NCBI RefSeq assembly: GCF_947623445.1
Contig: NC_135241.1
Location: forward strand, 6,326,501 to 6,390,500
DNA: 64,000 nt
From: Clavelina lepadiformis
Taxonomy: Eukaryota > Chordata > Ascidiacea > Aplousobranchia > Clavelinidae
Direction: 5' to 3'
Of the stretch, positions 1,025 through 56,724 are shown one piece after another (position 1 is the stretch's first letter; the number at the start of each line of letters is the position of its first letter). The position numbers were made by a program, and so were the translations under genes. The notes below the pieces were generated by a model that saw nothing but the letters and a program-made list of their open reading frames with translations, did no database searches and was not told where the DNA came from.

Positions 1025-1557
1025 TTTTACTTTGACAAAGGACGACTACTAAAAAGTAGTAGTAAAGAGTTTCGTAAGCAGCGCAATGTCAAATTGTTTC
1101 CCAAGTCCAAGCCTCTTATTGATTCCATTTGTCCCATGTTTATTGCCTTGGTTTTGCTGAAAGTAAACGGCATTGATTAAAAATATCATTGACGGTAAGT
1201 CGATAATTTTGAAAAGAGCATAAAATTGCAAAAATGGCAATTATCGTACGCGATAAACGGTGCAAATAATTAAACTTCTAGTGATAGGTTGATCTTAACA
1301 TATAAAGTTGTCAAGGAATAAAATGTTTCAGTTGCCTACCAGCTGATAAATGCGCTCTAAAAGTGCAGGTAAAAACATGCTTTTCTTTACCACCTACGCA
1401 AAAGACATGTGTCTTAATATTGGTGGCTCAAACATCTGCTCTTTTTTCATGGATGGAACATATCTTCCGATTCCCAACCAACTTTGTTGTCTTCGATGGG
1501 TTTCTTCAAAGAAATTCCCTGCTGCTTCATCGGATGGTGGTTGTTTGATGATCAACG
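1025..1557 (-). pseudogene. Decayed inverted copy of the last two exons of the NTLP precursor
   Basis: Read on the minus strand, this segment matches 4505-5075 of the peptide gene: the end of exon 4, the intervening intron, exon 5 and part of the 3' region. Because the intron is kept, it is a DNA-level inverted duplication and not a retrocopy. Decay is visible. The PYVI-type peptide is interrupted by a TAG (frame reads MSFA-stop-VVKK). The dibasic site after the LII peptide is now KQ, and the one after LPALL is now ER. GRYVPS-KK and EPPIL are still recognisable. No first exons or signal peptide accompany it, so it should not yield a peptide. Confidence 0.8.
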
Positions 1558-1750
1558 TTTGAATTTTATAAGTGCTGGTTCTTTACGATGGTTCTTAAAT
1601 AACTTATTCGATTTTGTTATGATAAATAACTTATAACTTATAAATATTTATGTTATAAATATTATACGAAATTTATGAAATTATTTTCAACAGCCTAAGT
1701 AATCTACTTGTTTTGTGATGGTTACGGTCACGTGATCATCTTTCTCTTGT

Positions 1751-2875
1751 CAGATGTTGTAATGCAACAAAAGATAATTTTTTACCTGATCTTTTTTCGA
1801 ACAAACGTAGCTCAAGATAGCATCAGTTGATGTCCCACCATTTTATACGCGGCAATTAAAGCTATTTCAAGCCTTTCCTTTTCTTTTACATGTATTTTTA
1901 TACCAAATGACATACTAAATTGTCTTTTTGATTATGCTCGTTCGTAAATCTTTCATGACTGTTTCACTGTGTGCAAGGTACTTTGCCTTAAAAATCGCTT
2001 CAACTGTAATTTGTCAAAGATGAGGAAAATTTTAGGAGCATTAATTAGTCTTGCGTAGGCTGTGTGTTTTTCAGCATATTATGACAAGTATAGGTTTCAA
2101 AAATTGTTTGTTTTAGTTATCGTCAGCAAGAAATTACAGAAGCCTAAATGCTTCAATTGAATCACCTGACTATTATTCAATTTGGTATAAAATTTTGTAA
2201 ATAATTTTTACAAATAAGTCAACCTGCAAAATCATAATATTGTACGAGTAACAACAACAAGTAGGGGCTAAAATGGAAGATAAAATGTTTAATGAATCTC
2301 ATTTAATGGAACTTCAATCAAACGTAACCCAATAGATGGTTTGTGCAATAAAAGTTAAACAGAACTGACATTCAAGTCTGGCCAAATGACATTTCAATAA
2401 AAGCGCATATGGAAATATTGCAGAAAGAGTATAGGCATGTGTGCTTGAGAAATTACGATTAAATGACAGGACTCTTATTAAATGTCAATCACCACAAAAC
2501 CTGCTTATAGCTGTACATGTTTTGGCTTCCTATAAATAAGTAATAGACTTATTATACATATGATAAACCGACCATCACATTTTCGATTATGCTGTCACAT
2601 GTCAAGATATGCTGGAACACAAACCACATACCACAACAGGCAAACTACCTTGCACACAGTGAAGCACTTATTAAAGATTTACGAACGAGCATACTCAAAA
2701 GCACAATTTTGCATGTCATTTGGTATAACAATGCATGTAAAAGAAAAAGAAAAGCTCGAAATAGCTTTAATTGCCGCATATAAAATGGTGTGACATCAAC
2801 TGATGCTATCTTGAGCTACGTTTGTTCGAAAAAAGATCAGGTAAGAAATTATCTTTTGTTGCATTACAACATCTG
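1751..2875. mobile_element. Fold-back element with ~235 bp terminal inverted repeats
   Basis: The left arm (about 1751-1990) and the right arm (about 2640-2875) are reverse complements at roughly 90 percent identity by eye. Both begin CAGATGTTGTAATGCAAC reading inwards. About 650 bp of unique AT-rich DNA lies between the arms. No transposase is visible, and no target-site duplication could be fixed. The open frame at 2560-2793 spans the loop and right arm, and the left arm carries stops in the matching frame, so I treat it as chance. Arms this long suggest a Foldback- or Mutator-like non-autonomous element, or an inverted segmental duplication. Confidence 0.65.
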
Positions 2876-3480
2876 ATACATATTGATCAACATCTGATAC
2901 ATCTGATACATTACATCATCTTATACATATTGTTATACAGATTAATCATCTCATAAAAGCTCTTTTCAATTTAGAATATGACAAATGATATCTATTTGTG
3001 AATAAATAGTGGTCAAAGAAGCCTGGACTCAATATGCAGAGTAAGAGCGATAATTAAAGCTTTACACAAGATGAGGAGAGAAGTGAATGACAAGAGAAAA
3101 AAGATTCTAAATTAAACTGAGCGATTATATGACGTACCTGACAAACGATGGATGCTAGCCTGGATGCATCTAGGCAAGTTGCAAGAGCCTTTTCAGCAGC
3201 TAGAATATTGACAAGCACGTATACAAATGGTTATAGCAAGTTCAATATAACTACGATCTTGTGGATGAGTATAAGTTTCAAACCAGTTCCGAAAGCAATA
3301 TACGCTACAAAATTAATCGTTTTTAATTTTATGTTTCTTAGCCTCTTAAAAGAATTTTTAAGTTTAAATTATTTTCTTTTTTAAGGTTTTTAACCATTTT
3401 AAAAGTATTGTTAAGTTCTTAGACTTCAATACAAATTTGACTTAAAAATTTGCTGAAGTATTACGTTTTGACGTGAGACA

Positions 3481-4988
3481 ATGATGACATTTTGGATGAT
3501 GATTGGGATTGTGATGGTCCACACATCTGCATGTTTTCAAGGTATTTTTAAACTCAGCAATAATTACTATAATTTAGTTAATAAAGTTGTTCAAGCAGTT
3601 AGTCAAGTCGCCTTTATAAACTCGATTTTATTTTAGAGATAGTGTTATACGCTCCCCGTAAGAAATTAATTACTTGGCGTGCTCCAGTCATCCAATATCC
3701 TTCACTACATATTATATGTGGATAACATAATTTATCGATTGTTAGTTTCTTTTTACACGACATAAAGCAATCAAGCTGCTATAGTGTACTATAATTTCAC
3801 TTGTATAGTTTTACAGTATATATTTATATAACATTGAATGCGTATAGATAACACTGTACTTTCAAAGCCAAGGAAACGCATATATGCCATTTTGTTAAGA
3901 ATAATCTTATAGGTTTAAACAGACTAAACAGGTTTAAACTTGGAGGTGCTAATCAAATTTTCAATGGTTTTTGTTTTAGGAGAAGCCTTATCGCTATCCG
4001 GCCAATCTAAGATGAGTGATAAAGAAGCGGTGGAGGTAATTGGAAATGAAACTACTTCGTCACAGCTTATTAGGGTTATTTAATAATGAAAAAGCTATTC
4101 TGCTTTCTTAAGCAAAAATACTACTTTAGCGGTATTGATTATACTTTTTTTTGTCTTTGTTTGATAGAACGGTCAAGGCGATGATGTAAACAACAAACTT
4201 TTTAAACTCTTATTAAACGATGGTGACGAATTAGAGCAAGAAGAACTGAAGCAACTGGAAAACGAACTCATATTCCACCGAAATCTTAATGAAGTCAGAT
4301 ATTTCTACATGATAGCTTTTTAAACCGTGTCTTTAAGACTTATTTCCTTTTCCTTTTTAAAGCCTACTCTTCTGACGTGTTTTAGCGTTGGGACGATATG
4401 GACAGCCTTCAGAATTTGATAAACCAGGCGCTTTCTGGTGGAATTACCAATGATGCAAACGATATATCCAGCGATATTTTTAACACTAACAACAAAAGAG
4501 GAGAAATGGATTTTCCCTTGATCATCAAACGACCATCATCTGATGGAGGAGAAGAAAATTCCTTTGAAGAAACCCTTCGAAGACAACAAAGTCGGTCGGG
4601 AATCGGAAGATATGTTCCATCCATCAAAAAAGAGCACATGCTTGAGCCACCAATTTTACAACGCATGTCTTTTCCGTATGTAATAAAGAAAACCAAGTTT
4701 TTACCTGCGCTTTTAAAGCGCATTTATCAGCTGGTAAGCTTTCTGAAACATTTTATTCTTTGACAACTATTTATGTTAAGATCAACCTATCACTTTAAAA
4801 ATTTGATTTTGACTCGTTTATCGTGTACAAATAATATATCCCTCGGTCATTTTTTATCATTTTAAGCTCTTTTTCAGATTTATCGACTTAGGCCTACCAT
4901 CAGTCATATTTTTAATCAATGCCGTTTACTTACAGCAATAAATAAACCACAAGTGGAATCAACAAGCAGGCTTGAACTTGGAAGATAA
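3481..4988 (+). CDS. Neurotensin-like peptide (NTLP-type) neuropeptide precursor
   Basis: Five exons (3481-3541, 3980-4035, 4168-4293, 4386-4733, 4878-4988) join in phase to 233 aa. Residues 1-19 are a hydrophobic signal peptide. Exon 4 carries candidate peptides bounded by basic sites: GEMDFPLII (120-128, KR both sides), QQSRSGIGRYVPSI (148-161, RR and KK; the N-terminal Gln could cyclise), EHMLEPPIL (164-172, then QR), MSFPYVI (175-181, then KK) and TKFLPALL (184-191, then KR). Each ends in Pro-x-(x)-Ile/Leu without an amidation Gly. Ciona NTLPs such as QLHVPSIL have this form, and neurotensin ends PYIL. It would be secreted and processed by prohormone convertases. The acidic spacer and the Cys-poor tail from exon 5 have no assigned role. 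Family assignment rests on motif form, so another non-amidated peptide family is possible. Confidence 0.8.
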
Positions 4989-5075
4989 TAATTTCACATT
5001 GCACTTTTTAGTGCCACGAAGCTAGTACAGGCCTACTACTACTTTTTAGCCTCATATTTTTTCAAAGTAAACATT

Positions 5076-7631: not shown

Positions 7632-8727
7632 TATCTATTAAAGGTGTCTATAATTGTAAGGATAACCAGAGAGTTCAATTTCGATGATACAATCAAAAAT
7701 TAAATCTTTTTAATCACTTAACATGATATCACAATGCTTCTTGAAACAAGTGGTTCCTATAAACGTGAAAAATGTAGCAACTTAAATATAATACGATTTT
7801 TACTGTATGAGTTCAAAGGTAGGGGTTGAAAGGTAAAGGCAAGAGGTCACGCTTTGGCGTTACCTGAAGATTATAAAGTACAGGTAGGTAGGCTACAATA
7901 CCTTATACTTATACAGATATAGGCCTAGGCAACTTAGTAAGCTTTGCTTGACCACAGTCTCTTCTGGTTCTAAACAAGGTCAAGGTACGAGTAGGGTGTT
8001 AGGCTATGAAAAGCTATACATGCATGTAGTGGGCTAGTGTACTGCGCAAAAAAAGAAAAGTGCGGTAAATTTATCCGCCAGTACATGGCTCAAATTAAAC
8101 TGTTGGCCACGCGGCTGTGGCTCACAAACTCACCTGATTGTTGCTGAGAAACTTACATGCCTGTGGCTCACAATTTTACGAGCCAGTAATTTAAAAACTC
8201 TGTCGCCTGAGGCTAAAAAACAACAGTCTATATAACCCTAATGACGCACACAAACAGTTACAATAACCTTCGACCTAAATATTATATGGTTGTACAGTCG
8301 ACAGTATATGAGGCAGTAGTGAAGGATTGTGCTATAGGTATACTGGTATACAATGGGCGTGCATTTCACTTAACAAAAAGCTTTTCTGATGTGATGTTTG
8401 GTTGACTGTACGCCGCCTTAATAGTTTCCTATAGATTGATAGACCCTTTCCAAGTTTTTTTCCGGGTGGCACCATCTTTTCAAGCAAACCTATATACTTA
8501 TCAATAGAAATTGTTGAACCACTTTGATTTGGAGTTTTATAAGTTTTATGGTAGTTTTACAACGTTTGGCTGTAGTGAAAGTTTCATAATTCAATAATTA
8601 TAGTATATAAGTTTTTAAGTTATGCTTGAATCTTGATAGGCATACTGAACTATAACACGTATAGCGTAACATCCAAGTGTTAAACAGTTTGTGTTGATTG
8701 TTTGTGCTGATTGTGTTATTTACATCC
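7632..8727. other. Upstream region of HINT3, nothing specific seen
   Basis: No coding signal. It ends with the 5' untranslated region of HINT3. An AG preceded by GTGTTAAAC lies about 40 bases before the start codon. Confidence 0.45.
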
Positions 8728-9198
8728 ATGGGTAATCAAAAATCAAAGTGCCCTTTTTGTGAGGTTGTAGAGACCATCTACAATGAACCCAATGAAGACA
8801 GCACTGATAATGACAGAGTTTTATCTTACAATGACAAGTATGCGATATTTCCTGATAAACATCCAGCAGCTAAGCACCATTACCTTGTGGTGCCAAGAAA
8901 GCATATCAACAATCCTAAAACATTGGAAGGTGAAGAGCATGCCAAAATGGTAGAGGAAATGTATGGTTTTGGCAAGCAATATCTTGAGTCTTTGGACACT
9001 GCAGAATTGGCTACAGATGCACGTTATGGTTTTCATTTTCCACCATTTATTAGTATTGAGCATTTGCACCTTCATGTAATATGTCCTGCATCTAGTATGA
9101 ACTTTACACACACAAATTTGTTTCGAGAAAACACTTGGTATTTTCTCAGTCCTCCGCATCTAGCTGAAGTGATAAGGCAAAAAGGAAGCCGAGTTTGA
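8728..9198 (+). CDS. HINT3: HINT3-like HIT-family nucleotide hydrolase
   Basis: Uninterrupted 156 aa frame from the ATG at 8728; the upstream in-frame codons contain no ATG. HINT3 proteins hydrolyse adenosine 5'-monophosphoramidates and acyl-adenylates. Visible features: CPFC (residues 8-11), the central HHYLVVPRKHI segment, and the histidine triad HLHLHV (112-117), whose middle His is the family nucleophile. The C-terminal SYWF-like region appears as TWYFLSPPHLAEVI. Vertebrate HINT3 has a longer N-terminus. Here the protein begins MGNQKSK, which fits the N-myristoylation pattern (Gly2, Ser6, Lys7), hinting at membrane attachment. The gene lacks introns, unlike its neighbours, but the sequence is not decayed. 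Confidence 0.9.
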   Translation: MGNQKSKCPFCEVVETIYNEPNEDSTDNDRVLSYNDKYAIFPDKHPAAKHHYLVVPRKHINNPKTLEGEEHAKMVEEMYGFGKQYLESLDTAELATDARYGFHFPPFISIEHLHLHVICPASSMNFTHTNLFRENTWYFLSPPHLAEVIRQKGSRV

Positions 9199-25108: not shown

Positions 25109-26970
25109 TCATGTGGTTGAAAATTGATCAATGAACTCATTTTGTTCAACTTCTTGCTTTTCTAAGGCTTGCTGTTGCACACGTAGCCTGCAATTAAAAA
25201 TTAGATTTAGTTCTCCTGCAAAAAGGTAATTGTCATACTGACACCAAAAATAGGTAAATAATCACCTTTCCAACTGGTTTTTCTTTTCAGCAATTAAAGC
25301 TTGTAACTGTTTCTGCTCTGATTCACGTTGTTTAGCGATTGACCTCAACATGTTACGTGATCCGATTGCCTGTGAAACGCATTAATTTATGTGCCAATGT
25401 TTCATGTAGCAAAAAGACTAGTCATTCTCAAAGCAATACAGAAGGATACATGGCATACCATAAATCCACAATGAAACAATTAGATGGAAATAAAAGTAAA
25501 TGTGCTGTTATCAGTCAACAAGATTTCTGTGGTCACAATCAAAGAACTTATTTCAAGTTATATCACGTTGGACAGAAACATATGGAGACAAAATTTTTGT
25601 TGTTGTGGCTATCAGGGCCAGGAACGATCTACCAAAAGACTTCCATGATGTGAAAAACCTGAACTCTTTTAAAATATTACCAAAAAGCGCATTGTTTTCA
25701 CTGCTTTTGTGTTTTAACATTTTAAGTCTTTATTTTTCTGAAATGCTTCGCTTTTTTCTTTTATATTTTGTAAGTTACTTGTAGTTTTTATCTGTTTATT
25801 GTGAAGCGCTTTTCACCAGGTATAGGGTACTATACAAATGTTTATTATTATTATTGTTAAAATTATCAAATGTTTTACATCAACACAAACAAAATTGTTG
25901 ATAAGCATCACACGTAAAAGCACCAAACCTTCATCTTTTCTTTTTCAACTTCTTGAGCTAAATCATTGGTAATACTAATAAAACTGCCAACCATTTTCTG
26001 GAATTCTGCAATTTCTGTGAAATATACAAACCAATAATGGTATGGGTATAGTATCATCAAATAAAACAACAACTATATCCAATTTCAATAATTTGTGAAT
26101 TTATTAACGTGAATTTCATATTTCTAGACAGCTACTTAAAGATATACCAGGTGTCAAAATATATATACTGGTAATAATATGACATCAAAATGTGTTGCCA
26201 AACTTCCAATAGATATACACACGACCTTCCCTATGAAATATATAAGCTCAGTTTGTGTAAAAGCGATATGAAGCGATATAAATGTGTAACAATTACTTGA
26301 TTTAAAAAATGAAAATACTGACTAAACATGCAGTGGGAGATCTTTCCAAAACTTGATATTTCTGAACAAAATTGCAAACACAGCTGCAAAGTTTGAACAA
26401 ACAGGGTTGCATGATTAGTGAGCTTGATAGTGGAGTGATTACAGTGATGCGTTTGTAATAATGCACCCCACAATAATATTTTATACCCAATAGTGCTACC
26501 ATTATAAAGCCCTTGAGCAAGGCACTAACAGTGCTTGTTCCTATGTTTAGTGGTACTGGTGAACAGTTTCAACTTTGAGCAATACGACATAAAAAAAGAA
26601 AAGATGGTAATTCTGTATGTCTGTTGGAAGGTGCACACAAACGAGCTTGGTAACTATGGCTCAAATGATGAGGAATCAACGACAAGTTTAAGTCGTGTAA
26701 AGATTTTTCTCGATCCAAGGATAAAAGTCCTGATATATTATGTAGTATGATGCAACTGCTTACCATGATACCAAAGAACGATCTGAAAACGGAAGCTGTA
26801 TTTCGAGTTGCAAACCATAATGCATAATAAAATTTCTTACTTCCAACAAACTCTTGGCATTCCTCTTTCAATTCTCCAGTTTGCTGAGCATTTTCCGGTT
26901 CTAAAACTCTTAATTTATTGAGATCATCGAAGTGCAAGCCAGAATCCGCTAATGTATCTTCAGCAGTCAT
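25109..26970 (-). CDS. IFT20: IFT20, intraflagellar transport complex B subunit
   Basis: Four exons (26841-26970, 25929-26014, 25266-25369, 25109-25187) join in phase to 132 aa, the same length as human IFT20. The IFT-B subunit IFT20 links Golgi-derived cargo to ciliary transport. Diagnostic stretches are [16 protein letters not shown] near the N-terminus, LKEECQEFV, the middle EKEKMKAIGSRN, and the end EQNEFIDQF. The body is a predicted coiled coil rich in Gln, Glu and Lys, as expected for pairing with IFT54. Introns 1 and 2 carry repeats, including a LINE tail. The gene is divergent from the PP2C gene, with 588 bp between start codons. Confidence 0.96.
25480..25860 (+). mobile_element. 5'-truncated LINE tail in IFT20 intron 2
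   Basis: Opposite in strand to IFT20. The frame encodes [19 protein letters not shown], the WNxLP...SLNSFK type ending of jockey/CR1/L2-like reverse-transcriptase proteins. It is followed by an untranslated tail with GGTATAGGGTACTATACAAATG and a TTA-repeat end. Only the far 3' part is present, so it is a dead insertion. Confidence 0.7.
26570..26735 (-). repeat. Dispersed repeat, copy 2 (IFT20 intron 1)
   Basis: Partner of 20585-20735, diverged, on the same strand relative to the window. Confidence 0.5.
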
Positions 26971-27558
26971 TACAGGTAGTATTTTCCCTTTAACACTACA
27001 TAAAACAACTAATTTCTGCCTAATTGGACAACCTGCAGAAATTTTCCCATCACGTAAGTAACAGAAGTTAAAATCGTTTACAGTACCAATAACGTAACTT
27101 CACCCACTCAGCTCAAAATATGTTCAGTTTTGTTTTGTTTGGAAAAGTTTCTATGCATATTTTACGGTTTGGTTATTTTGTTTCATAACGATTAAAAAAA
27201 TTACCAACAATTTCTTTTAAATACGAAAGGCAATCAAATACATCGAAATGACAAGTTACCGATCCTGTTTTACTAATTTAATTAAAGTTTTTTTTATAGG
27301 ATTAAGGAAATTGCATCTAAAACATGTATTAACTTTCAGTAAATTATTTTATTGTTTTGTTTCTTACAACGGATTTATCAGCATGCGTGTTTACACCATT
27401 CTCAGTTTTCACAAAGAAAACAACTTTCATGATATCTGGTGCTGGTAGTTTCCCTTTGCTTGGTTTATGGAGCTACCTTTTCTACATACAGTAACCAGAA
27501 ACAGAGTATAAATAAGGCTGAGAGACAAGAAACGTGTTGTTTATTCCAGTTCTGAAGC
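26971..27558. promoter_or_regulatory. Shared divergent promoter region of IFT20 and the PP2C gene
   Basis: 588 bp separate the two start codons, so both promoters must lie here or overlap. No TATA box is obvious. GTAACCAGAAAC at 27491-27502 resembles an RFX X-box with one mismatch but is far from IFT20. Confidence 0.4.
27534..27549 (+). other. Strong splice acceptor 9 bases before the PP2C start
   Basis: GTGTTGTTTATTCCAG is followed by TTCTGAAGC and then the ATG at 27559. It would leave a nine-base 5' leader. This is the expected look of a spliced-leader acceptor, though an upstream untranslated exon is possible. Confidence 0.5.
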
Positions 27559-30500: not shown

Positions 30501-33500
30501 AAAAAATTGAAGCTGAAGTCTTCTGTAATTTATGAATTTTGTGTGAATATAAAAATCACTTCAAACCATAAATCAGTTTTTGTTTAAATCCTGTCAGTAG
30601 CGGTATTTCTATTTGTGGTAGAGCTGAGTTTGACTATGCTCCCAAGTTATGGCAAGCAATCTTTTGGTTACAATGACAGTATGTATCACTATGATGCCAT
30701 CTAAACAAATGTCTTCAGTGTTGAACAGATGATCTTACGATGTTTACTTTGCTAACAGTTCTTAGGTTGTGGTTGCTAGGCTGTTCATTGTTCCGTGACT
30801 TCATAATGAAAGTTAAATATTAACATGGCTGGGAAATGGGCAAACTCGACAAATTATGAAATCGTTTTGACATGTTTGCAGGATGATAACTGGCCCAACA
30901 TTAGAAATTAAATGGAAATAAATGACCAGAATATTTCAATTTTGTTTGCTTTGCACTTTTTATATAAAGATAGACATGTTTCTGTTATGAGCACACTTGT
31001 GTTGCTTGCTTTGATTTCCTTGTAACTATGGTTATTCCTGCAGTGATTGTCCCGACCTCCTGGCTCTTCTTATCACCAGAGAAACTACAGACTCTGTATT
31101 ACATGGAGATTTATCAACAGCAAACAAACAGAATGATGATGGTGTACCATGTAAATATCACATATGCCATAAATAATTGCTTTGAATCAATTAAATGTTA
31201 ATGATTGCAGTTATTTGTATTCATTATTTGAAGTATTTATACTCCAAATTATGAATTACAATTCGTCAACTAGTTGATACTATCGTTATTTCAGGAAAAT
31301 ATAGTTATAAGTCTTTAACAGATGATTTTCACAAAAACTAAGTAATGTCTTCTTTTTTATTCATTATTCACAGATTATGACAACGCTGTACTGGCACATT
31401 TAATGTTTTCTGCTATCCATGAAACATGTAAAAAATGGAATGAAGAGCTGCCGCAGACTTTGCTAAATCATTCTGTTCCCCTACAGAGCTCGGATTATGG
31501 CATTCGAAATACAAGAAGAAAAATGGAAGACAAACACTCAATTATTCCTGACCTAAATATTTTAGTAGGCAAAAAGGTTTGTTATCATACACCACACACC
31601 ATTTTTATCATGTATTCCAACCTTATTGAGTGTATGTATTCGCTTACAATAATTATAATTATTGCGTTCGCTTACAATGATTTTAATAATAATTAAGTAT
31701 TATTGAACGTTGTTTGAAGGCATTTAATGAAAAAAGTAAAACTAACTGATCAAACATTTCATTGTGTGCAGGATGTCCCTATTATCCAATGGTATGCAGT
31801 TTATGATGGGCATGGAGGGCTTGATGCATCAACATATGCTGCTAAACATTTGCATTTAAACTTTATGAAGCAAGAAAATTGTCATACTGACGTTGATGAA
31901 GCATTGAAGAAATGCATTAGAAAAACAGATGATGACTTCTGCGAAAAAGCAAAAGTTGAGGTACTCGTGAATGATTATATTTAGACAAAATAATTTTGTG
32001 TTTTAATTGCTCTGCTGAAAGGTTTTTCGTTTCTAAGTACATCTTCCACAATGGGATAGGTAAATTAAAATAGGTTGTTGATCAGCAACCGTAGACAAGT
32101 ACACTTTTGTGCAGTATGTGATGTTGACCAGATCTTAGTAGTTCTCGTTTTACCTTCTTGGTATTGCCCAACATATGTTATGACAAAATGATGTGCGCTG
32201 TTTTCGGTGTTGCAATATCCTGTGCGTTTTGCTGATTAAATATTAGATCATAGTTAAATTAGGTACTGCTGTTAATACATCACGACTTAATTTCCATGTA
32301 GGATCTTAAACTAGCTTTGCTCTCAATAATGTTCATGTCTTATTATTGGTTAATAGTAGTGACATTGGCACTGAGTTATTTCCTATTTGTTGTTAATACG
32401 TATGCTATTTTCAGTTCAATCGTCTGTTCAAACATTTTTACTAATTGTTATTACAAAGAACAGCAAAAAATAGTCAACTGTTTATATTTTGATTATAATC
32501 AGTATCACTTTCTTGTGATTGTTCAAGAATCTTAGAAGTGGAACTACCGCTGTAGTTGCTGTAATAACTGAAAGCACATTACATGTGGCATGGGTTGGAG
32601 ACAGTCAGGCGGTGTTGGTGAGAAACGGCCATGCTATGACGGTTAGTAACACCCTAAATGATTTGTTGTATTGCAAAAAACATCTTTAGTGACTAAAGAA
32701 AATACAATGTTATGAGGTTTTTTAATATAAAGTAAGGGATTGGTAAAATGGAAATATATTTTCCGAAATGTGTGTTGAACACAAACTTAGGCTCGAACTG
32801 CTGATTGAGTTGTGTTAGCTTGCTTTTTTGCCATAACTAAAACTATCGTCTTTAAACAACAGAAAACAGAAGCATGATTTGGGTTATACACAATGGTAGG
32901 CCTATTGAGATGTGTCGAAGGTGAAATATCTTTTTTTATATTTTTGATTAGATAATGAATCCACATAAACCTGAACGTGAAGATGAAAAGCAACGGATTG
33001 AGGAATTGGGAGGATGTATTGTGTGGTTTGGAGCATGGAGAGTTAATGGAAGTCTCTCTGTATCAAGAGCCATTGGTTGGTTTATCCTAATACATTGTAT
33101 AGATATACACTGGAAATCAGTTTGCTTAACTTGCTTCATATAATGGACTGGTTAGGCCTTAGGATATCAAAATTAAACGCAATGAAACGTTGTGGCATTT
33201 ATTTTTTGTAAGTGCCATGATTTACAAATACACCACTGGTAATTAAGTATCATCTTCTGAAAGTGCCACTTGGTCTTGTATTAGTTTCGGTGTAGCATGT
33301 ACATTACTGTTTTCATCTGTTGTCCTGTTGTTTACGAACACATTGATGTTTACCAGAAATTATTCGTTTTTTCAAACTCTGTTTAATGCAGGTGACGCCG
33401 ATCATAAACCCTTTATCAGTGGAGAGGCTGATACTGCTTCTGTTCCATTGGACGGAAGCGAAGACTTTTTAATTTTAGCATGTGATGGTTTTTGGGATGT

Positions 33501-35888
33501 GTTTAGTGAAACTGATGTTGTGAAATTGGTAAGATCGGAAACGTTTGTACTGAAATGCAATAAGAAAGCCAGAGATGGTGTTTGATGATTCAACTAACGA
33601 ATTTTGTACAGGTGCGTGATCATTTATCAGAAACGAACGATAGAGCAACAGTCACACATACCCTTTGCATGAAAGCAAAATCGGAAGGATCAACCGATAA
33701 CATCACTGTGCTTGTGATATTCCTAAGGGAAGACATAAACCTCAATGAAGAAGGAGAACAAGAAGAACTGAGCAAATTGAAACTCACAGGTTTATTTTAT
33801 TGAACAGCAGTTTAAATAAGAGTTTGTCGTCGTCTGATGATCCCTGACGCGTCTACTCTCTTGTTTGTTGCAAATCAAAGATTGGATTGGACGTAGGCAA
33901 GTGGCAATTGTCACATTCCGTCCAATATGAATTTTATAGCGGTTACAACTAGTGACAAATAAGCAGTTAGTAGTGGAAAGCAAATCTATACAAGTATTGT
34001 TGTATTTTGTGTGAGAAAATAAGCTAGGTTGTTTCTAAACAAGCTCTTAGGGTTTTTTCCGTGGTCTTGTGGGCGCTCACTCATCGCACTGGTCAAAACG
34101 TATAACCGGATAAGTTTTTCTTTTTGTCAGTTTTTGTTTTGAACTGCATTGCCAGTTTGCAAAGTTTGGGAACCACTCCAACTTAAACCGAAAGCTTGAG
34201 AAATGCATCGCGCTGCCTTTTGTTGCCGGCGTTGCCGCAAATCAATATCTTTAATATAATAGTTGAAGTTTGTCTATTAAATCTGTACTTAATTTTGTTT
34301 TCACAGTTTTTTCTTTACTTTAGACGAAGAACAAATTGAACAACAACCGGTTGACAATAATGTGAACGCTAATACCAACAACAACAATAATCGTACCAAC
34401 AGTAATCTGCCAAACAACAAAACTAATTATGATGAATCAGCAAACAGCTTAAGTATGCTTCATGGGTTCCACGTTGAACCAGCTGAGAAGATAAAAATCC
34501 CGCACAGACTCCTCGTCAATTTTGTCAAAAGTGTAACTGAGAAAAAAGTTGAAAAGGTATAAAAAAGTTTTTTCGCTGAAAAATTCCATGCTCTCAATGA
34601 CAAAAACGTCGGTTTTAAGTCTTATTCGCAAAATTCACAAAAATAATGATTGCTGCAGATATTTTATGATAAATAATCCCTTATTGAATTTAAAAAGTTA
34701 TATAAACCAGGGTAGGTTTGCACGGTTTAACACCGAAATATATTTCATCTGTATACCTATAGCCATCTTAGGCATGTGTAGAATCTTATTGAATTTTGCA
34801 GCCGACGATCTTAGTAACCCAATCTTCCCCTCACACAAGGCTGCCACATTCAGTGTATAATTCCAGATGGACAAGGTTAGTACGCTTACTACGCTCTAGA
34901 AATTATTTGAAATGCTCACTTGGAAAATTTAGCTGGCATATATTGTGTCTGTTGCATTGAATCAACAACCTGTAACAAATTTCTTTACTTTTTCAATCAA
35001 GTTCTCAAGTGTCGCCAACATTTCGTCGAAGGGACACAAGAGGCAGTTTATTGTCATTAAGTACCATCGAATCTGTCACAGAATTGTCCTTTAACGAGAC
35101 AAAGGTAGGTTGTAAAGTAACAGTGTTTGTTCGACGGAAACAATGTTGATGTACTTGAGGTTAATGGCTGTTTGCATAAGTTGTTGCATTTAAGAAGTGA
35201 GCCAAAATGTTTTATGACAACAGTTACACCAGTCGTTGACTTATAAATAGCTTGCTCTATTATATTTTGGATTATGTTGGATTTTAAAATGAAAGTTTTG
35301 TTCTGTTTCAGAGCAACGATGATGCCAAGTCGGCAAACAGTCTGCCGTTAATTCACGACGTCCCACCAAAAGCAAGGGTAGGGCTAATGCTCAACTAGTT
35401 TATGTCGCCTGCAATTCATAATGGCTTATATTACGACGAGTGTTGCCAATCATAGTTGAAACTACTAACACTGGCAAATCTTAAAAACAAATTGATTTTG
35501 GCGCGTATCATAATTTGGCATATTCATTTAGCCTGAAAGAACAAGTACGACAACCTCACCTTACGAAAGGAATCAAGTATATCGTGCTTTGGGCTATCGA
35601 GCCCCTCATATACACAGTAGAGGACGCGCCAAGATACCTTACCACGCGAGCCTGGTTGTCACGTGCCAAGACGACAAGTTGCGATCATCTTCATTAAACA
35701 AACGGCATTCGGGCTCACTACCGGACGCTCTTCATGGGGTTTCCATTAAGAACGGACGAGTGAAAAACACAGAAATTGCCATAACCAATTCTTTATCGCC
35801 CACAATCAAACACAAACAGCTAAAGAAAGTCAATCATAAAGTTAAGATTGCTCACAGAGGTCGTCAGAGAAGTAGATCGGCGTTTTGA
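27559..35888 (+). CDS. PPM1E: PPM1E/PPM1F-type PP2C Ser/Thr phosphatase
   Basis: Thirteen phase-compatible exons: 27559-27725, 31044-31150, 31374-31576, 31772-31960, 32528-32641, 32952-33075, 33392-33528, 33612-33789, 34324-34556, 34802-34875, 35002-35104, 35312-35377, 35532-35888. The product is 683 aa. All PP2C metal-site motifs are present: RRKMED (139-144), YDGHGG (170-175), [41 protein letters not shown] and [25 protein letters not shown] closely matches the POPX phosphatases PPM1E/F, which dephosphorylate PAK and CaM kinases. A tail of about 280 aa follows the domain. It has an Asn-rich stretch in exon 9, a Ser-rich middle and a basic end. The long tail is more like PPM1E than PPM1F, but the gene may represent their common ancestor. 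The acceptor used for exon 5 (ends at 32527) is weak. Confidence 0.92.
27726..31043 (+). other. Large first intron of the PP2C gene
   Basis: 3.3 kb and AT-rich, containing the SINE at 29626-29793 and a (TA)n run near 30390. No nested gene is seen. Confidence 0.6.
29626..29793 (-). mobile_element. tRNA-derived SINE, diverged copy
   Basis: On the minus strand it starts near GGTTGCCAAGCAGTTAGAGTG (tRNA A-box-like) and continues to TGTTTGATACCC (B-box-like). It then shares the CTTGG.C.AGTAA and CTGTTC-containing body with the copy at 40026-40178. Confidence 0.6.
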
Positions 35889-41649: not shown

Positions 41650-42412
41650 TGGCTGGGGTTGGTTTAAAATATCATGAAATTGGTTTTGGCGAAATTCAGA
41701 GTTAGCCTGTTGCTAATAAACCATATATGGGCAGTAACTAATTTCTCTTCAACTTCTTTTGCTAACTTATTGATATTTTTGCCTTGTTTAACTAAATTAG
41801 TGTCACCAGCAAACATAATTGCATCCATTTTTGTTAGACAATTTTTAAAGTCATTTACATAAATGAGGAAAAGTAAAGGTCCAAGAATCAATCCTTGTGG
41901 AACTCCATGTTGCATTTTACAAGTTGAGCTAGATAAGGTTCCATTAAAATCTACTACTTGGTTACGAGCAGAAAGATAGCTTTGGAACCAATTATTTGCG
42001 ATTGCTCTAATGCCGCAGTGACATAATTTCGCAAGCAAAATATCATAGTTAATTGTGTCAAATGCTTTGGAAAGGTCCAAAAACACGCCCACTGCTGAGT
42101 TGCCTTTTTCAAAACCATCTTTGATTTTCGTACTTAATGAAGAGGCTGCATGGCAAGTGGTATGGCCTTTTGCGGAACCCAAATTGGTTTTCAAAGAAAA
42201 AGATGTTTCTATTTAGAAAACTAAGTACCCTTGTATTTATTAAAAATAATCCAAAATGAGGATAAGACTAAGAGACTTATTGGTCTATAATTACTGCATT
42301 GGTGTGGGTCTCCCTTTTTATGTATAGGAATTATTTTCGCTGTTTTGAGGGACTCAATGAATTTTCCCGTGGACAAGGACATATTATACACAAATAAAAT
42401 ATTAAATAACAT
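41650..42412 (-). mobile_element. LINE reverse-transcriptase fragment (jockey/CR1/L2-like)
   Basis: The minus strand encodes reverse-transcriptase motifs in two frames: IPIHKKGD and NYRPISLL (42221-42412), then FLDLSKAFDTINYDILLAKL, HGVPQGLILGPLLFLIYVN and FAGDTN (41664-42194). The second catalytic motif should read FADDTN, so one catalytic Asp is lost. There is a frame break between the halves, and no endonuclease or 3' tail. It is an old, dead fragment. Confidence 0.85.
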
Positions 42413-42889
42413 AAATAAAATATTTTCAGGGCTGTTTTTAAGTGCTATTGCTGGTTTGATATGCTACTATATTTCTACTTCAGCAACTTATGTGGTTACT
42501 CTGACTTAACTGTTAACTGTTCATAATTTCTGTAACTGCTGATGAAATAGGTGCCGTTTGTGTTATGTTACTGCCTTTTGTTAGTATTTTAGTGTGTGTG
42601 AAATATACTCGGAAAGGGGTCTGTGTAGCCTATTGCATATTTGTGAGCGCTAGCCTACCACTCTGTAAATATAGTTCGCTTTGTGTGACAAGCACAATTT
42701 TCCAAGTTGAGAAATTACGTTCCACAAATGGCAGACATTATTTCAAATTGACGTCTCAGATTTTACTTTTTTACTCACACAGAAAGGCCCTATTGGAGTT
42801 GGAAAAAGATTGTAACTTTCGAGGTTTAATTTTGTTGGTATACTGTTTGTGCAGATACTTGTTTGTACTAGGTCTCCTGGTTGTTCAAA

Positions 42890-45800
42890 ATGGCTGAGTA
42901 CGATTTAACATCAAAAGTGGGATGCTATCTTGATCGCCACCTAGTTTTTCCATTATTGGAATTTTTGTCGGAACGTGATATTTTTGATGAGCGTGACTTA
43001 CATGAGGGCAAGCTTGAGTTGTTGAGTAACACCAACATGGTTGACTTTGCCATGGATGTGTACAAAACTCTTTATGAAGGAGAGGTAAAACATTTGCAAT
43101 TCATGTATATATATGTATATAGCTTTATTTATGCTTTCTTGGTTCTAATTGCAATGTTGTTATGTAGATGTCATCGCAATGAATGTACTTGCCTTGTGGT
43201 ACAGTACAAAAGAAGTATATAATGTATTATACTGTTAGTTGTTATATTGCTGCACTAACTCAAAGGTGCCCTTCTATAGTCCAGTGCAGCAATTCTTTAA
43301 AGTTCAGGATTCCTTTGATAAGATAAAAAAATTAAATATTAAATAATTGAATGAAAAAATATTTTTTGTAACTGCAACCATAAAAAGGTATAGTGCAATG
43401 GGTATAGAGGCTTGAGTGGTAAATCAACACAAAAATAGAGAAGCTAAGACGAATGAATAACCATATACAAGCCTCGTAATGCAGGTTGAACACAATTTTT
43501 GGATCGGTTAAAGACGGCATCAAAGGAAAGACAAGCACAATCTAGTGAAAGCAAGTAGCACGCAACATGAAATGACTTAATGCGCAATAAAAATATGTTT
43601 GTTTCGTAAATTTTTTGTCGAAATGAATCACAGTCAATCCATTGCTTTAAAGTTTATTGAAATTAATAGTGTATGTTCATTTTTTGTCCTCTTACCAGTT
43701 TTAAAACTCATATTTGGTTTAGGTGCTATTGTGCAGTTTGTAAAACACAGATATGTTTTTGAATGAAACAGTAAACTAGATGATTCTGCTTTACATGCAG
43801 TGCAAAGTAGTGTGATACACGAAGTTGAGTAAATACTTTTGTAAAAATATTAACGATGTATTCTTCCGACCTGAAAATTTCCGCAAATCGCTTTTGAGGC
43901 ATCACATTTAAAGATTACTGCCAAAAATGTTTTACTTGATGTTTTGTCTGACTTCATTCATTTTGTGAAGCTCAGGTATTGTACGGTATAGTGTTTTGAA
44001 AGTTGTATGAAAGTTGACATCCGACACAACAATGGTAAATGAGCCTACATACGAGAACAGATCGAGCGAACACACCCCTCACAAAATAGGCTTAATTATC
44101 GTTTTCACAAAACAAAAATGTGTCTCTGCAAATCCCATATTTTCAACGTTGAATGAAATAATATATTTTATTACTTTGAAACAAGTATACTTTTTCAAAA
44201 TGACATGAAATAAACGATAGATATTAAATAAGGTTCAAACTGCAAGCGCTCGGATTTAATTGAGCATCTTTCCGTCAAAGTGCGTTGTGCGGACAAGATA
44301 ACGTTCGCCAAGGAGTTAAAAGAGAAAAATAAACTCAAGAAGAAAGAGGCGAAGAGAACAATCCACGCTCCTCACCCAAAATGCTCTGCAAGTTGCAGGG
44401 TTCAAAATAAAGACACGCAGTTTGTTTTAAAGTGGACGGGACGCTATTAAAGCGTCTTTTAATGAACAAAAATCTTCTTACACTGCACATTTTGCCAAAA
44501 ATAAAAGAAGTTTGTTTGCTTAAACAGGTCTTTATACTGTACTACATCATAAGGCTTTAGGCTTCAAAACGATTTCCAGAAATAAAGCTTTGTGCTTTTG
44601 TTGACACGATAAGAAACAAGTCAGTGATTATTAAAAAATTAATTTAGAGAAACTTAACGCATGTTAGGATTTCAGAAAAATGCAAAACCTTGCCAAAGTC
44701 CGGGCGTGTCGTACTCCCGCACTCCCTAACTTGGCGCCCGTGATTGCACACACAGTGGAAAAAATGCAAGGTGACATTTTCAGAAGTCTTTGCCAGACAA
44801 AAATGTGAAACAAAGTGCAAAATGAAATATCAAGCCTGAATAATTTGATTTTGTATCGGACTCTAGAAATTTCTGGGTGAAAAGGGCTATCCCGCCTGCT
44901 TGCCACATTCACCTGTGAAGTAGCGTTTACTTTATCATACTGTGAGTTATAGTTTTGCTTTGATCTAGTGTGATTATCAGCTAAGTGTTATGTATTTTAC
45001 ACAGGAAATTCCAGTTCAACTTCGTGAGAAAAGGAACAAAGTTGTCTCCTTACTAAAGTCACACACCATTAAAACCGAACCGATTGTTCATATTTTTGAA
45101 CAAGAGGAAGTTCGCAAACAGGTTTGAATTTTATTCTACTTTTTTTTTTAATTGCTCTATCTTTTTTATCTAGCCCTTAAAAGGTTTAAACTCGCTGAAA
45201 TAACTACAGCGACAAGAAAACATTCACATCACATCATCACAAATCATTATTTTCCTTTGGTATTGTCAGAGAAATTTGTTTTTGTTTTGTTGCAACTCCT
45301 TCCTGCCTTATCCCGATTATAATAGCTGTGGCTAAACATTTTTTCATTGTTTTTGTTAGGTTTATTAATAAGGACACCTTACAGCTGTTATAAATATTTG
45401 CATTGTCATAGAAAATTTAACCCAAAGTAACCATGAACTTTCTTACCCAAGTTTTTCCAGAATTTAATAGAAGGGCAGCTCATAATATTACCAATTAATA
45501 TGGTATGCTAATGGATGTAAGCTGCTATAACCATACATTTTTTCTCTCACCGTGTTAAAGTAGTGAGTTAGTTAGTTTTTCCAAGTTGGTAGGAAACCAA
45601 ATTGACAGGTAGTTTGAGAATTGACAATTAATACTTTTTCATGTAAAATGTTTTAGTGAACTCAGTTCATCAAATTTGCCTTGAGTAAATGACGAAATGT
45701 GCAGCAAATCTCATGTGACCTTTTTAGTTCTTTTCACATGTATGTATGCACTTTTCCCACTCTTTCTCTCACAAAGTAAGGTTTTCCCCATATTTTTCTT

Positions 45801-51060: not shown

Positions 51061-54000
51061 TCACAGATGAGATATTGCTTTGAATCGTTGGAGAGAAAAT
51101 GTCCCAATTTCATCTTGAACTTCTTCATGTAGTGCAAGTTGCCCAAGAATTCTTCCAACCACGGGAGATATTTTGAAACCACTACCTACAGGAAGAGAGA
51201 AACATCTTTTAAAACCCAATGACGTACTGCATAGTGATGATATAGAAATAGTCATGCTGAGCTCTATCCACACAAACACAATTAGTATAGAAGACAAGTT
51301 TACCCAATACATTGGTATTCAGAAATATTTGCAAAGTATCATTTGTAATTTTGTATACAAAACAAATTGATGAAAGGTATACAATTGATAGTTACATCAT
51401 GACAAATACAACATCCGAAGTTTGAGCAAGCAATACCTGAAAATCCAGCTCCAACAATAATGTTTTTGTGCTGTGGATGACAATCCAAAATACAGTCTTT
51501 ATCTGGTGTTACCTGGAAAAAAGATTTTATAAAAATTGCATAAAAATGTTTTTATCAAGGCCTTGGCTTTTTTATACTGAAGTTTTTGTTTTATTACTTT
51601 TTATGTAATTACAACTACCAACGAGCTAACTAACTAAGTACTGCATTGAATTCTACTAGTAACGGTAATTTATAGTTCACTAACTGACTACTGACAAGAA
51701 CCAACTGAACTTAGCTATAAGCAGTAGATAAAATTAGTTATCAAATTCCTCTTATATCAGTAATGAATACAGTTATTATTTGAAACTTCTGCAATTAAAG
51801 TAATCACATCTACTTTGGCTCAAGCCTTATTGTTTAATTCAGCAATTATACTATTTAACATGCTCTTTAGTAGTTATAATTTATCATTTTCTGTATTCTA
51901 CCCTCCACAGCAACAAGCACACTTAAAATTACAATATTTAAGCACATTAGAACGTATTAAGCAGATTTTAAGGATGATCTTACTGAGTATATGCAAGTCT
52001 CCAAAACAGCTGGCTCCGGAATGAGATTGGGAAAATGTTTTTTGATGCTACTTTTTAGAACCTTCACTGATAGGTCGAAACTCGCAGAATCGTAACAGTC
52101 ACGTTGATCAGGATCAATAATTGGCCCGGTGTGGCAGCAAACCTAAAAATTTCTTTCTTTCTGATTTATATAACTTTTTCTTTTTTGTGCAAAATCAATT
52201 TACTTTGGAAGAAAAAATTAATCACATTTTGCAGTTTGAAGGTGTACTCTACCGTGTAATTATTCAGCTTCTAATCCTTCTTTTTTGAACATTGTACGGT
52301 GATACTTTTTTACAATTCTCAGAACAGACAATGGATGTGATTTTCAATTTTATTTTACTATATATTTTTCACATAAAAGAATTTCATAGTTGCAGTTTTT
52401 ATAAAGGTCTTTTGGTGTTTGATGCTATCTAATAATCTTTTCTAGTGATGTTGAATTGTAAAAAGTACACAAGTTCAGCTTATTCCTTTTTACTCACCTT
52501 CATCAGATCAGGATATTCCATGATTGGAGTAGAATAAATATGGTCCTTCCCATAAAATATTAGTGCTGGAAACTTTTTGTTTGCTTGATATAATACAGGA
52601 TTCTTCGCCTTCCAATACGCAACACATATTCTGGTTGGCTATAAAACAACAAAAGTATTTGTAAAGTAAATTACACATATTTCCTAACTATTGTAGTCAG
52701 TTAATTAAAATTAAAAAAAATAAATTTACACTTTAAAAAGAAAACAAATCTAAATTTTAAAAAGAAACACCAGCTCAAATTACTTTCAGTACCAGATACT
52801 GTTTTTGTAGAGGTTGTCTTATGAGCAACAGGATGATTTTAAAAAAAATGAAAAAAACCTGAGACTTCTCTTACAGCAATGGGGATATTTAGGTCTAATC
52901 CACTTAGAGCTTTTTGGGTCCAGGGTCCACAGGTTAACACCATAGATTTAGACCGATATGATCCTTTGTTTGTGGTAACCACAACTTCACCCTTACTCAC
53001 CGGAGTGATTTTAATCACCTTTTCTCCATCATGAATTTTGCCACCAAAAGACTGAATGGATTCCTAAAAAAATGCAGAAAGCTAATACAGTTAGTCCTCG
53101 ATTTAACGGACTTCGATTTAACGGAGTTCGGATTTAACGGACTCAATATGCGCAGATCTATGAGTAAAAGAATGTACCAAAAGAACGGTTTTTATTGTTT
53201 TGGAATTCGACAGGCTACTTGTGTGAATGCGTGAAACGATTAGAAAGCTGTCTCTCATAACGTCACAATACCAGCGTATTGTGATCTATCAGCGTACTCT
53301 GTCAGCGTACTCTGTACTCTGTTAGCAAGAGCCTTCATTCGGTGCACCTTAGAATCCGTTAGAACCTGCCTGTGTTTAGTACGGTGCATTATGTCTAAGC
53401 CAAATGAAACACGTAAACTTGTGAACTTGTCGGTGATGCAGAAACTAGAACTGATCAAAAAGCTTGAAAAAGGGGCCAGCGTTGCGAGTGTTTGCGATCA
53501 GTATGGTGTCAAAAAACAAACAGTCTCAGACATTAAGAAGAGCAAGGACAAGATCGTGTCACCTTTGATCCGCGTGTCACCTTTGACCGCAATGCAACCG
53601 TTTCTACGGCTGCAAAGGCTAACTCCGCAACAGTTGGCTTTGTATGGAGTGCAAACAACATCAGCGGACCTGGAGGAAGCGTCGAGCAGGTCGAGTTGCA
53701 ATTCCACCAGCGACTCCCTCGGGCACACCTTACCATCTTCACCCGATGTGACGTACCTCTCGCCCAGCAGTTTCTCTTCCGCGGCGACAATTCCATCTTC
53801 GCCCGAAGTGACGTACCTCTCGCCCGACGGATCGTCATCCGAGCCGACAATTCCATCTTCGCCAGCGATGTCGGACCTCTCGTCTAGCGAGTCGTCCTCC
53901 GGGGTGATGTATCCATCTTCGTGGGAATCGAGCGGGACTGACCTTTCTGCTATTGTTTGGGAACGGGTATCTAGTTACCTTGCCGAGCGGGATCGGTTGG

Positions 54001-56724
54001 AGCGGTCTGTCGAGCACGTCCCCCCTACCGGCACTGGGTCCTCACTAAGTAGTTTAGACGATAATAGCTGCCCTGATAGACCTACTGATAGTTCTTCTGC
54101 CCCGGTCGGCGGAACACACGGAATTGCGGTCGCGGATGTGCATAACAATGATGAGGTCACGCGCTCTCCCCGCCGATTATCTCGCGACCAATCGGTAAAC
54201 CAGGAAACTGACACGGTTCGGTATGACGCCCCAAATCCCGTCAGTCTATCACCCGGAGTGAGCCCGGCTTGCTCGCTCCGTACAATTTTAAATTGCTACC
54301 ATCAAGGATGGTCGGACCTTGCAAAACTTTTTGCAGATTTGGAGCTGTGGACGACTGCCCAGAGTGCCCGGAAAGAACAACGTGTGTCTGTCCCCCGATT
54401 CAACCGTGGCGCGATGGCAAGATCTCAGAGGAAGCGCAGAAGGGGTCAACGTCGCGGAGACGATGGCCGATCTGAAACCCGGCCTAGCGCTCGGTACCGA
54501 AGAGGTGCGGCCCTTCGCTCAGCGTTCTGGAAAGACATGAAAGGTACCGTTCGCAAAATTACCGAAGGTTGCGCTAGTGAGCGCCGTTGCGAAATCGATC
54601 CTCAAGCGGCTTTTGGAAGGATCTCGACCCCAGGGGGAAGCTCCTTGCAGATCTGTTCGAGGTCTGTAGGTCGTGCCGTACCGTACCCGATTCGTGGCGC
54701 AGAAGCCGCGTCACTCTCATTCCTAAAAGCTCTGAGGGTGACATGAACGATTTGAGTGACTGGAGACCGATTTCGATCTGCTGCACGCTTTATAAGGTCT
54801 ATGCGTCGGTGATCGCCCGCCGAATTCAGCGTTGGGCCGTCGACGGCGGAGTGGTCTCACCCGAACAGAAGGGCTTTGTGCCCACAGAAGGCGTCTACGA
54901 GCATGTATTTATGCTCGACTCTGTCGTTGCTGATGCTCAGATGCGGCGTCGACCTCTGGTCGTGTCGTACCTCGACATCCGCAACGCTTTCGGCAGTGTT
55001 CGTCATGAATGTATTACATCTCTCCATCAAAGTACTGTAGTGTTTTATCGTAGGCGTGTTTTCCAAGCAAAAGCTAGAATTTGCGGTGACAGATGGTCTA
55101 CGCTATCAGAGAGTACTTGCTATAGCAGAGTACTTGACTGTACACTGTACAGTAGTGGGAGTACGGTATTTTCGATTAACGGACTTTTTCCAGCAACGGA
55201 CTGCTGCTGGTCCGCATTTGTCCGTTAAATCGAGGGTTGACTGTAGTTAAAGTATTGCACCCTACCATGTTAAAATTGCGATATAATACATTTTGTGCTA
55301 CCTGTAGGCTCTTTATGCATTGGTCTGCTTTCAGTATACCTCCAGATTTTTCATAGATACCAATAAAATTATTATTGACAATCAACCCTGGAAATCGTTG
55401 TTTGATCTCAGATGGCTGAAATATTTCATATGAAATGGACAAGTCAGACAAACATTTCAACATTGGCTGGGCATCTTCTTCAGTGAGAAGTGACAAAACA
55501 CCAGAATTTCTGCAAAACATATTTTATTTGACACGATTTTGCCCGGAAGTTTTTTTATTTATTTTGTTTTAATCGATTTATGACTTTTATTAAAAACTGC
55601 TTACAAAAATAGCTTAGAGCTGGTTTTCATTTCAAGTTCATTCCATCTTTTAAATGCTTCTGGCATCATCATTGCATAATGCCGATCGATATAGGAATAT
55701 CGAGTTATTCTGGATGGACCATGGGAACTTCCTCTAGTATGTGGCATAGGAAACTGAATAAATTACATATCTCAGGCATTACTGCCAATAAACCGAAGAC
55801 GTTTCAATGATAGATATGTTACTTTCTTGATGGGTTAGCTATCTTAAGCCTTATAGTTCAATTTAACAATGTTTTACTACAAAGACCACGCCCAGCCAGG
55901 AAAAATGAAAATATATGTATTTTCACATGTAAATTTAGAACAAAATGGGGAAATTGTAACCCGGATTGGAAAGTTTGCTGTTTTCGGGGAAAAAATTCCC
56001 TGCGCAACAAGCTTAAAATATAACGATTACATATGCATGCAAATCGTTCAGAAAAAAAGCAAGTGTGCACAACGTTGTTTATTTCCCAAAAGAATTGTGT
56101 GGGTAAGACTTTTTCTAGTGAATTGTGTTAGAAGTATTGTCAGGTTTATTTTGAAACTATACAGTATGAACAAAAATGTCCCACTTTGGAAATATATTTT
56201 TAAGGATTCTGCACAAACACAAAAGATTTTGTTTATATGTGTAAAGCAGTCCATGGATTTTTCATCCCCTGCGTACTTAGCAAAGTTTCCAATCTAGATT
56301 GTCCTCACTTACAGCCAAAAATATTCATTGACAGCAGAGTTTCAAAACCAACAACGGTCACTCTCACATTATATACAATTTTAGCAATGAAAATACTAAA
56401 CCACCGGCTATATTAACTGGATTTACTGAAGCCATTTGAACATCTCTAATCTCATCAATATCAAACCTCAATTAAAAAAAAAGCAAAATGCAAAAAGAAC
56501 ACCAACTATTCTGATTATTCGTTAGTAAACCAAAAACCCGGTTCAAGCATGTAATCTATGACAAAAGCATACTTCACACTTTAGATGAAGCATTCTGAAT
56601 CAACTTAAGGACTTACTTGCTCAAGCAAGAGAACATTTTTGTTTCGCTCTGCTAAATAATGAGTGGTCCAAAGTCCTTGAATACCACCACCACAAACAAT
56701 CACATCATAAAACTTATTAGTCAT
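51061..56724 (-). CDS. PIPOX: Peroxisomal sarcosine/pipecolate oxidase (PIPOX-like)
   Basis: Eight exons (56617-56724, 55605-55753, 55302-55509, 52875-53063, 52498-52638, 51984-52142, 51437-51512, 51061-51185) join in phase to 384 aa, close to human PIPOX (about 390). The family oxidises sarcosine, L-pipecolate or L-proline with FAD, releasing hydrogen peroxide. GGGIQG (12-17) is the dinucleotide-binding loop. HTRGSSHGPSRITR contains the family GSSHG motif (44-48). TCGPWT marks the substrate-domain strand. ETC (Cys315) aligns with the Cys that carries FAD covalently in monomeric sarcosine oxidase. NIIVGAGFSG and GFKISPVVG follow. The C-terminus is SHL, a valid peroxisomal targeting signal 1. 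Intron 3 is enlarged to about 2.2 kb by a Tigger-like transposon. A decayed copy lies directly downstream. Confidence 0.93.
53545..55020 (+). mobile_element. GC-rich LINE fragment nested in the Tigger element
   Basis: Composition jumps to clearly GC-rich with CG-rich codons, unlike everything around it. One frame runs in from the transposase HTH to 54746. It carries Ser/Pro repeats and a basic region (RSQRKRRRGQRR). The frame at 54587-55228 encodes reverse-transcriptase motifs: VTLIPKSSEGDMNDLSDWRP, SPEQKGFVPTEGVYEHVFM, then VVSYLDIRNAFGSVRHECI. The YADD and later motifs are missing. The motif style recalls R2/NeSL-like non-LTR elements, but that is tentative. Borders are approximate. Confidence 0.65.
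53725..53920 (+). repeat. 60 bp coding tandem repeat (3+ copies)
   Basis: An exact 60-base period encodes 20-residue units of the form TIPSSPxVTYLSP followed by a Ser-rich spacer. The last copy is more diverged. It lies inside the 451-codon open frame at 53391-54746. Confidence 0.85.

Follow-up and report, generated by a model that had tools for sequence, protein, structure and literature searches.

The neurotensin-like peptides (NTLPs) of Ciona are unamidated and carry P-x-[ILV]-[ILV] ends. A locus in the genome of Clavelina lepadiformis, an aplousobranch ascidian (PMC10884593), raises the question of whether a precursor of this kind is present also in this animal. The locus lies near one end of the window, by which we mean the whole stretch of DNA that was analyzed (64,000 nucleotides of contig NC_135241.1, from position 6,326,501 to 6,390,500 of the forward strand), and all coordinates below refer to the window unless a contig is named. 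The results of our analysis indicate that the locus is probably a single Clavelina gene that encodes a secreted, NTLP-type neuropeptide precursor, accompanied by a decayed head-to-head duplicate.

Gene model and candidate peptides

The first-pass annotation had placed five exons between positions 3481 and 4988, and these are borne out as an in-frame join with GT-AG borders, the splicing of which was read from the sequence. The join gives one predicted open reading frame of 702 bases on the + strand, encoding 233 amino acids followed by the stop codon, and its four introns, all of the GT-AG type, span 438, 132, 92 and 144 bases. The predicted coding exons are the following.

3481..3541, + strand: coding exon 1, with a signal-peptide-like start, MMTFWMMIGIVMVHTSACFQ; donor GTATTT
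3980..4035, + strand: coding exon 2, propeptide; acceptor TTTTAG, donor GTAATT
4168..4293, + strand: coding exon 3, acidic propeptide; weak donor GTCAGA
4386..4733, + strand: coding exon 4, remaining propeptide and all candidate peptides; acceptor TTTTAG, donor GTAAGC
4878..4988, + strand: coding exon 5, C-terminal propeptide and stop; acceptor TTTTTCAG

The span of exon 3 contains only one further in-frame GT, namely GTAAAC at 4186. The N-terminus of the predicted precursor is hydrophobic (mean Kyte-Doolittle value of 1.47 for residues 3-18) and its start has no basic n-region, there being no basic residue at this place; the C-terminal segment is basic. In-frame stops are found 5' of the exon-1 ATG, and AATAAA words occur 3' of the stop codon at 5589 and 5680. 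Six basic pairs are present in the precursor, starting at residues 118, 129, 146, 162, 182 and 192, and the following candidate peptides can be recognized.

4500..4526, + strand: candidate peptide 1, GEMDFPLII; flanked by KR and KR
4584..4625, + strand: candidate peptide 2, QQSRSGIGRYVPSI; flanked by RR and KK, with an N-terminal Gln that may form pGlu
4632..4661, + strand: candidate peptide 3, EHMLEPPILQ; flanked by KK and a single R
4665..4685, + strand: candidate peptide 4, MSFPYVI; flanked by a single R and KK
4692..4715, + strand: candidate peptide 5, TKFLPALL; flanked by KK and KR

Candidate peptides 1 and 2 are separated by a 15-residue spacer, PSSDGGEENSFEETL, and the second contains two internal single Args. 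That five peptides lie between basic sites, as had been proposed, holds in full for peptides 1, 2 and 5, which have dibasic sites on both sides, but less so for EHMLEPPILQ and MSFPYVI, whose common boundary is monobasic. Since PPIL is followed by Gln-Arg and not by a dibasic site, candidate peptide 3 would end in Gln or else remain fused to MSFPYVI, an uncleaved Arg giving an 18-mer with the PYVI end. The ends had also been described as Pro-x-Ile/Leu types at basic sites, and Pro is indeed found at position -4 in four of the five peptides, whereas VPSI (within YVPSI) has it at -3 and PPIL, one end of the five, does not lie directly at a basic site. The strict form of the end, P-x-[ILV]-[ILV], directly precedes a dibasic site in three of the five peptides (PLII, PYVI and PALL). 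The reported absence of an amidation Gly is confirmed, for no Gly precedes the basic site in any of the five.

The clustering of these ends was compared with chance by permuting the non-basic residues within the 76-residue peptide region in 200,000 shuffles. The loose motif P-x(1-2)-[ILV]-dibasic is observed four times, a count reached in 36 of the 200,000 shuffles, and the strict motif P-x-[ILV]-[ILV]-dibasic three times, a count reached in none of them (0/200,000), both values being post hoc because the end motif was defined from the finding itself. Loose motifs number 20 across the six frames of the window, in which the candidate gene is the sole stop-free cluster (at least two loose motifs within 90 residues). 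The putative coding status of the gene rests on the open five-exon frame together with this motif cluster.

The predicted precursor would enter the secretory pathway and be cut by prohormone convertases at KR, KK and RR, perhaps also at single Arg, with a carboxypeptidase removing the basic residues from the cut peptides. Neurons would then release GEMDFPLII, (p)QQSRSGIGRYVPSI, EHMLEPPILQ, MSFPYVI and TKFLPALL as free acids, the targets of which may be G protein-coupled receptors like those for tunicate NTLPs.

The inverted copy and the upstream block

A second set of related sequences lies head to head with the gene, and it suggests that a duplicate arose in this orientation and subsequently decayed. 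The features concerned are these.

2638..2876, + strand: probable promoter block and short non-coding first exon, the exon role being deduced from the sequence
1750..1988, - strand: promoter and first-exon block of the copy; 92% identity to 2638-2876
1083..1555, - strand: decayed copy reaching from the 3' portion of exon 4 through intron 4 into exon 5; 81% identity

The alignment of 4518-5002 with 1083-1555 (- strand) has 403 identities in 499 columns (81%), and that of 2638-2876 (+ strand) with 1750-1988 (- strand) has 221 in 239 (92%). No further matching blocks were found between the gene and the inverted copy beyond these two, and the 194 bases from 1556 to 1749 match nothing elsewhere in the window except for a 13-base word attributable to chance. 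The copy (1083-1988, - strand) is without exons 1-3 and the 5' portion of exon 4, carries an in-frame TAG within peptide 4 and has lost the AG of the exon-5 acceptor; given the missing exons, the stop and the lost acceptor, it is therefore considered a pseudogene. This decayed head-to-head copy constitutes an internal record of the loss of such a gene.

Comparison of gene and copy over 72 codons reveals 27 base differences, distributed as 7, 12 and 8 over codon positions 1, 2 and 3, with 21 residues changed (stop included). The values of dN and dS, computed without the stop codon, are 0.134 and 0.131, a ratio of approximately 1, and purifying selection is thus not evident in the gene or in the copy; with this ratio, dN/dS was rejected as support for constraint on the gene. 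Conservation of the peptide cores does not significantly exceed that of the remainder of the compared region (4/23 changed vs 17/49 elsewhere; Fisher p 0.17), and these two results lend no help to the coding claim.

The upstream block contains a TATA box at 2779-2785 and a first exon that ends at 2840, followed by the strong donor GTAAGA at 2841. There are 18 differences between the two upstream blocks, only one of which falls after 2791, at base 5 of the donor. As the TATA box and the donor lie within this well-kept shared block, transcription probably starts near 2800, approximately 680 bases upstream of 3481, and we infer that 2638-2876 comprises the core promoter together with a first exon that is non-coding. 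Thirteen acceptor candidates are listed before 3481, the most pyrimidine-rich tract being at 3341. The better preservation of the upstream block with respect to the coding part could be due to selection or gene conversion. The two head-to-head blocks (2638-2876, + strand, and 1750-1988, - strand) are nearly unchanged after 2791 even though the coding part of the copy has decayed, a situation that may reflect gene conversion or retained promoter use.

Homology searches and alternative readings

Searches with the joined precursor retrieved no Pfam family above cut-off. DUF2240 remained below it (E 0.24), and PF07421 was absent from the families reported up to an E of 10, a range in which the filters drop most matches above approximately 0.1. 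Two matches in the PDB sequence search, one to flagellin (E 0.0047, propeptide residues 42-110) and the other to a tRNA ligase (E 0.54), were taken as chance. The genome searched comprises 209.06 Mb in 95 contigs, with the window on contig 2. Against it, the precursor protein yielded six matches (E up to 10, best candidates scored), every one of them within the gene or its inverted copy. Queries with the gene's DNA and with that of the upstream block recovered these same two places, again among the best candidates scored.

The vertebrate Pro-NT_NN profile had no match in the genome, the 14 controls in the same search being equally silent. Rat NTSR1 produced 24 matches (E up to 0.001), to distant GPCRs, and the best by E-value shows 31% identity. 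This match alone of the 24 was checked back, in the PDB, and it retrieved somatostatin receptor type 4 first; no NTSR orthologue was recognized in the genome within this scope. Open frames were listed for seven loci among the NTSR1 matches. GPCR genes whose open frames are long and single (L009, L010 and L014) lie clustered on contig 6, at ~18,582,000-18,618,000, and L009, the one of them that was checked, has its best match among somatostatin receptors. Judged by their titles, none of the papers retrieved concerns Clavelina neuropeptides.

Elsewhere in the window, the Rfam scan (gathering threshold) and the tRNA scan each returned 0 hits, and the domain scan covered 10 of the 24 open frames of at least 110 amino acids. 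A DcpS_C/HIT domain is found in the open frame at 8698-9198 (+ strand), a CENP-B-type DNA-binding domain at 53244-54743 within 53244-55228 (+ strand) and a reverse transcriptase at 41667-42212 within 41664-42212 (- strand); a further reverse-transcriptase-like frame, judged by eye, lies at 54581-55228 (+ strand). The CENP-B-type and reverse-transcriptase frames (53244-55228, + strand, and 41664-42212, - strand) are probable remains of mobile elements. Other frames match IFT20 (26569-27099, - strand), PP2C (33247-33585, + strand), the N-terminal part of eIF3 subunit 6 (42872-43222, + strand) and the TRPM SLOG domain (62442-62792, + strand).

The assignment to the NTLP family made in the first-pass annotation stands in part. 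The locus has the features of an ascidian precursor of the neuropeptide type, its predicted peptides being unamidated with P-x-aliphatic ends, but membership relies on short motifs set against the Ciona peptides, with no Pfam match above cut-off; we regard it as plausible, and common descent with vertebrate neurotensin as unsupported. The absence of any alignable homologue in the genome, Pfam and PDB searches would also suit a true neuropeptide precursor belonging to a family that is unrelated or restricted to this lineage, the NTLP-like P-x-I/L ends of which arose by convergence, the more so as the candidate peptides are unlike one another and short aliphatic ends arise easily in parallel. 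Such an origin is unlikely, though it deserves serious consideration, for P-x-[ILV]-[ILV] ends that recur and lack amidation form the very pattern of the Ciona NTLPs.

The dN/dS near 1 with respect to the decayed copy, the lack of a significant conservation excess in the peptide cores and the basic C-terminal segment might instead be expected of a secreted protein of a different nature, such as a structural or antimicrobial one that undergoes cleavage, in which the basic pairs would be incidental. This reading appears very unlikely, given the clustering of motif ends before dibasic sites and the strict form not being equalled in any shuffle. That the main locus is itself decaying or silent like its neighboring copy, as the same dN/dS, the weak exon-3 donor and the single Arg between peptides 3 and 4 might hint, is hardly credible in view of 233 uninterrupted codons over five exons and a promoter and first-exon block that is little changed. 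We retain the reading of the locus as a probable gene for an NTLP-type precursor.

Comparison with known peptide systems

As in the NTLPs of Ciona, the Clavelina peptides are predicted to lack amidation and have a Pro close to the end with aliphatic residues after it. They differ from the Ciona peptides in that their sequences are not identical, one end has Pro at -3 and one peptide runs into Gln-Arg. MSFPYVI resembles the PYIL end of vertebrate neurotensin, being likewise a predicted free acid with basic residues around it, whereas comparison with the vertebrate neurotensin/neuromedin N precursor (PF07421) gives no profile match, and the predicted Clavelina precursor has more peptides. A broader proposal, in which NTLPs are ascidian-wide and share descent with vertebrate neurotensin, the end of MSFPYVI being a retained PYIL-like link between them, seems to us improbable. 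A true NTLP-type precursor in Clavelina would nonetheless push the origin of NTLPs back beyond Ciona, and it would provide new peptides to test, one of which ends much as vertebrate neurotensin does.

The CiLF and CiYFV/L peptides of Ciona end in LF and in YFV or YFL, as their names also indicate, whereas those of Clavelina end in P-x-I/L. The CiLF and CiYFV/L precursors are described as containing multiple peptides (PMC12441681), as is predicted for that of the Clavelina gene, likewise in an ascidian. A 2022 review groups the CiNTLPs among Ciona-specific peptides and ascribes to them partial neurotensin-like sequences; it also reports that CiNTLP6 suppresses the follicle growth induced by the tachykinin CiTK in Ciona and that a calcium assay confirmed a predicted receptor for CiNTLP2 (PMC8936170). 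The closest parallel is offered by the Ciona NTLPs, CiNTLP-1 to -6, and their precursors A and B. Like the candidate gene of Clavelina, they combine an ascidian source with more than one peptide per precursor, CiNTLP-5 and CiNTLP-6 both being produced by the CiNTLP-B precursor (PMC12441681).
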